From NCBI GenBank assembly GCA_036268055.1, contig DATAUW010000016.1, forward strand, positions 124,001 through 188,000: 64,000 bases of DNA, written 5' to 3'. Source of the stretch: Verrucomicrobiia bacterium (GTDB lineage Bacteria; Verrucomicrobiota; Verrucomicrobiia; Limisphaerales; Pedosphaeraceae). Position numbers and translations under genes: made by a program. Under the pieces are notes generated by a model that was not told where the DNA came from, ran no database searches, and saw only the letters and a list, made by a program, of their open reading frames with translations. Each line of letters begins with the position of its first letter. Within the stretch, counting starts at the first letter, position 1. Positions 19,964 to 54,363 of this stretch are shown here, piece after piece.

Positions 19964-20323
19964 TTATTCGCTGACCATCGTGACTTTGCCGGTCGTGGGG
20001 TCGTAATCCAATTTCATGCCGTTGGGCACGTCGGGAATTCTCACGATCAATTTTTGTTCGATCAATTCGTTCAAATCTTTGGGGTAATGTCCTTCGGTCG
20101 CATTATACATCTGGACGGCCTGATTGAGCGAGGCGAGGTCCACGACCTTGAGCGCTCGCTGCTGGCCATTGGCCATGGCGCCGACGTAATCGGCGGGTGC
20201 GCTCAGGGGACTGACACCGCTGCTTCCTGAACTGGATGGCGTTGAAGAAGTTGACTGGCTGGATTTGCCGCAGCCGGCCACCAACGCGACCGCAAGCACG
20301 GTGATATAAACGGGCGTTCTCAT
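19964..20323 (-). CDS. lipoprotein with a pseudopilin-like C-terminal domain
   Basis: A protein of 119 residues. The lipobox LVAGC (Cys 18) is followed by a Ser-rich linker, so it is a lipid-anchored envelope protein. The C-terminal half (LASLNQAVQMYNATEGHYPKD, then LIVRIPDVPNGMKLDYD) strongly resembles the C-terminal part of T2SSG-type pseudopilins, but the pilin N-terminal helix is replaced by the lipoprotein signal. A promoter-like TATATT ends 6 nt before the ATG. Function unknown; a role in a type II secretion or pilus-like assembly is only a guess. Confidence 0.8.
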   Translation of the reverse strand: MRTPVYITVLAVALVAGCGKSSQSTSSTPSSSGSSGVSPLSAPADYVGAMANGQQRALKVVDLASLNQAVQMYNATEGHYPKDLNELIEQKLIVRIPDVPNGMKLDYDPTTGKVTMVSE

Positions 20324-52070: not shown

Positions 52071-52160
52071 GGAGGGGTGGCAGAGTGGTCTATCGCGGCG
52101 GTCTTGAAAACCGTTAAGGTGTAAAAACCTTCGGGGGTTCGAATCCCTCCCCCTCCGCCA
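52071..52160 (+). tRNA. tRNA-Ser (anticodon TGA)
   Basis: A class II tRNA with a long variable arm (AAGGTGTAAAAACCTT) between the anticodon stem CGGT/ACCG and the T-arm GGGGGTTCGAATCCCTC. Anticodon loop CTTGAAA gives TGA, reading UCA and UCG. Acceptor GGAGGGG pairs with CCCCTCC; CCA is encoded. Its place between tRNA-Trp and secE is unusual. Confidence 0.93.
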
Positions 52161-52994: not shown

Positions 52995-53420
52995 ATGGCA
53001 AAAAAAGTTACAGGACAGATTAAGTTGCAAATCCCGGCCGGGCAGGCCAATCCCGCCCCGCCCGTCGGCCCGGCGCTCGGTCAGCACGGCGTCAACATCA
53101 TGGCGTTTTGCAAAGAGTTCAACGCCGCGACCAAGGCGGATGCCGGTCTGGTGATTCCCGTGGTCATCACGGTATTCCAGGACAAATCGTTTACTTTCAT
53201 CACCAAGTCGCCACCCGCGTCCATCCTGCTCAAGAAAGCCGCCGGCATTACCTCCGGCTCCAAGACGCCGAATAAGGAAAAGGTCGGCAAAGTCACGCGC
53301 AAACAGGTCATGGACATTGTCAAGCTCAAGAGCAAAGACCTGAATTCCATTTCTGACGAAGCCAGCTTCCGCGTTGTCGCGGGCACGGCGCGCAGCATGG
53401 GCATTGACGTCGTGGGCTGA
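52995..53420 (+). CDS. rplK: 50S ribosomal protein L11
   Basis: A protein of 141 residues beginning [35 protein letters not shown], with [20 protein letters not shown] and the terminal [11 protein letters not shown]11 binds 23S rRNA at the GTPase centre. The next gene is not rplA but a small lipoprotein gene 17 bp downstream. Confidence 0.98.
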
Positions 53421-53437: not shown

Positions 53438-53608
53438 ATGAAACCAACCATCAAAGGCCTGTGCGGGTTCGCCCTGCTCGGTTTGTTGTTAGCCGGTTGC
53501 ACCACCGGTCATGGTGGTTCATGCTGTGATGGCGGCTCGTGCGACGCCAAAACCGCGATGAAGCCCGCCGCAACTAATACCGTTTCAACCGTTCCAAGCA
53601 GTAAATAA
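53438..53608 (+). CDS. small Cys-rich lipoprotein between rplK and rplA
   Basis: The frame encodes 56 residues. A type II signal peptide with lipobox LLAGC (Cys 21; the segment FALLGLLLAGC) is followed by TTGHGGSCCDGGSCDAKTAM and a Thr/Pro/Ser-rich tail. The mature part has His and three further Cys close together, which may bind metal. No family recognised. It lies in the rplK-rplA gap (235 bp), 17 bp after rplK on the same strand, where no gene is normally found, and rplA starts 47 bp after it. Confidence 0.7.
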   Translation: MKPTIKGLCGFALLGLLLAGCTTGHGGSCCDGGSCDAKTAMKPAATNTVSTVPSSK

Positions 53609-53655
53609 TAAACCGCGGGAGAGCCTCAAAACTCGTTTGCACCGCAACACATTGA

Positions 53656-54363
53656 ATGCCAAAAAATCCAAGTAAAAGATATAAAAAGGCACTCGAGGCC
53701 GTGGATGCGAAAGTTTCCTACGCCCTTAAGAATGCCGTCGAAGTGCTGGCCAAATTTCCCAAGGCCAAGTTTAACGAAACCGTCGAAGTCGCGTTCAAGC
53801 TCGGCGTTGACCCCAAGCAATCCGACCAGATGGTTCGTGGCACGGTTCCGCTTCCTCACGGCAGCGGCAAGACCGTCAAAGTTTTGGTGTTCGCCAAGAA
53901 CGGTGCAGCGGCGGATGCCGCCAAAGCCGCTGGCGCTGAATTTGTCGGTTACGAAGAATTGATCAAGAAGTGCGTGGAAGGCTGGAACGACTTTGATGTC
54001 GCGATTGCCACGCCGGACGCGATGGTTGAAGTCCGCAAGCTCGGCAAAGTCCTCGGACCGCGCGGTTTGATGCCCAATCCGAAAACCGGCACTGTGACCG
54101 AAGACACCGCGAAAGCTGTGAAAGAAGTCAAAGCAGGCCGCGTGGAATTCAAGCTCGACAAAGCCGGCAATGTGCATGTGCCCATCGGCAAGGCGTCCTT
54201 CACTCCCGTTCAACTCGCGGAAAATGCCCGCGTGGTCATCGAAGCTGTTGCCAAGGCGCGTCCTGCGAGCGTCAAGGGCTCTTACTTGCAAAGTTGCACA
54301 CTTTCCGCTACCATGAGTCCTCCGGTGCGCATTGATGTGCGTGAGTTCCTGGCCACCGCTTAA
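53656..54363 (+). CDS. rplA: 50S ribosomal protein L1
   Basis: A protein of 235 residues with KRYKKALEAVDAKVSYALKN at the start, TPDAMVEVRKLGKVLGPRGL and MPNPKTGTVTEDTAKAV as expected for L1. L1 forms the mobile stalk at the E site and can repress its own operon by binding the mRNA. rplJ follows after 20 bp. Confidence 0.98.
   Translation: MPKNPSKRYKKALEAVDAKVSYALKNAVEVLAKFPKAKFNETVEVAFKLGVDPKQSDQMVRGTVPLPHGSGKTVKVLVFAKNGAAADAAKAAGAEFVGYEELIKKCVEGWNDFDVAIATPDAMVEVRKLGKVLGPRGLMPNPKTGTVTEDTAKAVKEVKAGRVEFKLDKAGNVHVPIGKASFTPVQLAENARVVIEAVAKARPASVKGSYLQSCTLSATMSPPVRIDVREFLATA

Follow-up and report, generated by a model that had tools for sequence, protein, structure and literature searches.

The rplK-rplA spacer and its short reading frame

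The window (the whole stretch of Verrucomicrobiia DNA analysed here, 64,000 nucleotides) contains the standard gene block tuf, tRNA-Trp, secE, nusG, rplK, rplA, rplJ, rplL and rpoB, with names assigned from sequence and position. ARAGORN places a tRNA-Ser(TGA) at 52071-52160, between tRNA-Trp and secE, where tRNA-Trp alone was expected. The spacer between rplK and rplA is 238 bp long and holds two features, a short open reading frame (ORF) and, downstream of it, a predicted stem-loop:

52995..53420, + strand: rplK (uL11), the upstream neighbour; its L11 is 91-94% identical to L11 of the same family
53438..53608, + strand: ORF for an apparently orphan small lipoprotein of 56 residues; ATG at 53438, stop codon ending at 53608; absent from relatives
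53615..53645, + strand: uL1-operator-like stem-loop upstream of rplA, GCGG-GA-GAG...CUC-GUUUGCA-CCGC
53656..54363, + strand: rplA (uL1), the downstream neighbour

The ORF starts 17 bp after the rplK stop codon and translates as MKPTIKGLCGFALLGLLLAGCTTGHGGSCCDGGSCDAKTAMKPAATNTVSTVPSSK. The initial annotation had described the frame with these coordinates, this strand, length and distance from rplK, and a lipobox, and all of this agrees with our reading. It had also reported a Cys cluster, which is present, but the motif reads HGGSCCDGGSC and not HxGGSCC. The protein comprises a signal peptide (residues 1-20), the predicted lipid-accepting Cys21, the Gly/Cys-rich stretch just given (residues 25-35) and a Thr/Pro/Ser tail. 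The predicted mature chain has 36 residues, chiefly Gly, Thr, Ser, Ala and Cys, and includes three Cys and one His in addition to the Cys that would bear the lipid. There is no clear Shine-Dalgarno sequence before the ORF and no terminator-like site between it and rplA; ORF, rplK and rplA all lie on the same strand.

In a pattern test, the N-terminus was recognised as a class II lipoprotein signal, MKPTIKGLCGFALLGLLLAGC, with a basic n-region, an uncharged h-region and a perfect LAGC lipobox. These features and the short hydrophilic tail are those of small bacterial lipoproteins, which carry class II signal peptides and are matured by the general Sec/Lgt/LspA pathway; the ORF differs from them in lying inside a ribosomal operon and in having no family match.

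When the 238-bp gap was shuffled 20,000 times with its dinucleotides preserved, 21% of the shuffled sequences had an ATG frame of at least 56 residues on this strand, so that such frames are common. Those that carry a class II signal arose at a rate of only 5e-5, which argues that the ORF is probably a real gene and lends support to the proposal of the initial annotation that a small lipoprotein gene resides in the rplK-rplA operon. Of the frames of at least 40 residues in the window, counted over all six reading frames, only four pass the same lipoprotein pattern. The codon evidence is weak. The ORF has the highest codon score of the six frames, yet this score is close to zero bits overall, i.e. 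neutral; its synonymous choice is above the base-composition null (p = 0.018), and its synonymous use is about 2.5 standard deviations below the expectation from the genes of the window, unlike that of a highly expressed ribosomal-operon gene. Given that the codon evidence is equivocal, the case for a real gene rests mainly on the signal peptide. In our view the ORF is probably genuine, a gene of an ordinary kind in an unusual location.

A putative uL1 operator ahead of rplA

The element immediately before rplA had escaped the initial annotation. Its layout, common to 92 of 97 distinct rplK-rplA gaps, consists of a GCGG/CCGC stem, an internal loop made up of GA at its 5' side and of exactly seven nucleotides at its 3' side, and then a second stem. 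The inner pairs of the second stem covary (GAGC/GCUC, GAGU/ACUC, GAAU/AUUC, GGGC/GCCC, GGAC/GUCC and others). Because our pairing script kept whichever pairing was best in a given gap, the pair counts are biased towards pairing; the constant sequence and spacing are visible directly in the gap sequences. The covarying element was seen in the gaps of loci L004-L155 across Limisphaerales. Folding energy alone does not set it apart (z = -0.6); the comparative pattern does. No Rfam model matches the element, and recording one that covaries across an order without such a match is in its own right a modest but useful addition to annotation.

uL1 operators mimic the uL1 site of 23S rRNA and form irregular stem-loops with an internal bulge; in Actinobacteria and Cyanobacteria they are located ahead of the L1 cistron, in Firmicutes ahead of both cistrons (review, PMC10931766). 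The element described here is likewise an irregular stem-loop with an internal bulge, located ahead of rplA and laid out like the 23S site. A search of the genome that contains the window for the exact 23S pattern GTTTGACTGGGGCGGT found no occurrence, and the mimicry comparison was therefore made with E. coli 23S rRNA, which is arranged similarly (GGUGGGAGGC...GCCGACCUUGAAAUACCACC) but has a longer 3' loop than the element. From this likeness we consider the element at 53615-53645 a putative uL1 operator that probably controls rplA. It departs from the autogenous operators of the review (PMC10931766) in that a gene, the ORF, intervenes between rplK and the predicted element, and in the missing Rfam match. 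As the predicted operator still lies directly ahead of rplA, rplA could remain under uL1 feedback, with the inserted gene following rplK.

The spacer in related genomes

The initial annotation had assumed that the rplK-rplA gap normally spans a few bases. This applies to E. coli (3 bp), but the median of 88 distinct gaps, almost all of them from Limisphaerales, is 50 bp, and the gap of this order normally contains the uL1-operator-like element. A lipobox frame with conserved Cys, which had been suggested as something to look for in relatives, is missing from the gaps of the six closest readable genomes (five of the same family plus the one containing L055), all of which are 49-56 bp long, too short to accommodate the gene, and have no lipoprotein frame. 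L055 is the nearest locus, with L11 96% and L1 90% identical; its gap of 53 bp retains the same element before rplA, and the ORF therefore represents an additional block of about 185 bp.

We found no credible homologue of the ORF in its own genome (including a search for paralogues) or in 58 relatives, among 320 genomes of the order and 387 of the phylum, or in viral contigs and plasmids. The best matches, with E-values of approximately 0.003-0.07 per genome, were rejected: they are at chance level over hundreds of genomes and correspond to other lipoproteins or to frames of other genes. A DNA search of the same family matched the segment before rplA and not the ORF. Searches of curated families and solved structures with the ORF protein gave no significant match, and our literature search found no paper on a lipoprotein gene within the rplK-rplA operon. 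The ORF is best read as a species-restricted orphan, found in one genome.

The gaps of the order were also surveyed from the coordinates of L11 and L1 and their sequences then fetched; this survey covers the best-scoring matches listed, so its counts are lower bounds. In at least four genomes of genus g46 (loci L138-L141; genomes G215, G209, G216 and G225), the gap is 330-342 bp long and contains a gene for a lipoprotein of 81-86 residues, upstream of the same uL1-operator-like element. Two of the four proteins match DUF4177 (PF13783) above the Pfam cut-off, one falls just below it, and one has no match. For one pair, L138 and L140, the dN/dS of 0.11 indicates purifying selection, and at least these are therefore selected genes; given their position, the site tolerates working lipoprotein genes. 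In a tree of L11 and L1 with moderate support, the g46 carriers are scattered among sisters with short gaps, which implies repeated loss or repeated gain: the gap of L139 measures 342 bp and that of its sister L191 only 48 bp. Further long gaps in the order contain no convincing gene. The gaps of L069, L077, L079, L016 and L144, from several families, are filled by inverted-repeat blocks of about 90 bp, GATTAAGATT...AATCTTAATC, which look like a dispersed hairpin repeat; repeats of the GATTAAGATT type are absent from the window.

The g46 genes share with the ORF their site and their position upstream of the element. The ORF protein has no Pfam match to DUF4177, and a profile of the g46 proteins found no match in the genome of the ORF at E 0.1. 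The two cases are therefore best treated as separate events.

Origin and possible role of the ORF

With a probability of about 0.6, we favour the reading that the ORF is a real, lineage-restricted small lipoprotein gene, placed in the rplK-rplA spacer upstream of a uL1 operator and probably carried on the rplK-rplA mRNA. Strand and position suggest co-transcription with its neighbours. The 17-bp spacing and the lack of a clear Shine-Dalgarno sequence point to hand-over from rplK, i.e. the start codon may be reached by ribosomes that have just finished rplK. Sec would export the product, which would then receive its lipid on Cys21 and be cleaved to a 36-residue lipopeptide. In E. coli, Asp at position +2 is a retention signal; the ORF protein has Thr at +2, so that the outer membrane is the likeliest site of anchoring. 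The tail is probably too short to fold independently, and, speculatively, Cys29, Cys30 and Cys35 would most likely form disulphides or a loose thiol or metal-binding patch.

The competing explanation that deserves most attention is a young or decaying insertion, in which DNA with a lipoprotein signal arrived in the gap and has little or no translation and no selected function. The restriction of the ORF to one genome, its neutral codon score, the fast turnover of gap contents in the order (L139 and L191 above) and the long gaps that lack a convincing gene would all fit this scenario. We nevertheless consider it rather unlikely, as an intact and complete signal of class II, sharing its frame with a start and a stop codon, rarely arises by chance and the synonymous choice exceeds background. 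Descent by truncation from an ancestral DUF4177-like gap lipoprotein, kept in some g46 genomes and reduced here to signal peptide and linker, would account for the common site and order relative to the uL1 element, for the similar start (MKxTIK) and for the CC that follows the lipobox in one g46 copy. Against it stand the silent g46 profile, the missing DUF4177 match and the gene-free gaps of the other readable members of the family, and we rate it the least probable of the explanations considered.

The initial annotation had envisaged a Cys-rich lipoprotein that may bind metal and whose expression would follow ribosome synthesis. Operon position makes coupling of ORF expression to ribosome synthesis plausible, and metal binding by the Cys/His cluster is possible given the three Cys and the single His of the 36-residue tail. 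The combined proposal strikes us as very doubtful: with no homologue found there is no conservation to back the Cys residues, there is no family match, and Cys-rich stretches also follow the lipobox in other Verrucomicrobiota lipoproteins (L172, L163 and L161), so that the cluster alone is not distinctive. A broader idea is that small lipoprotein genes have docked repeatedly in the Limisphaerales gap, upstream of the uL1 operator, allowing an envelope protein to be made in step with ribosome synthesis and outside direct uL1 repression; we think this unlikely.

If the ORF is indeed a gene, then rplK-rplA, among the most conserved gene pairs of bacteria, can accept small membrane-protein genes and yet keep its RNA operator. 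Being short and easy to clone, the ORF also lends itself to the question whether passenger genes of this kind track ribosome synthesis.

Elsewhere in the window, two small lipoprotein frames of 119 and 52 residues lie close together on the minus strand, starting at 20323 and 20523, respectively. The 52-residue frame contains PAATNT and has a Pro/Thr/Asn tail like that of the ORF protein, a likeness that we counted in favour of a real gene.
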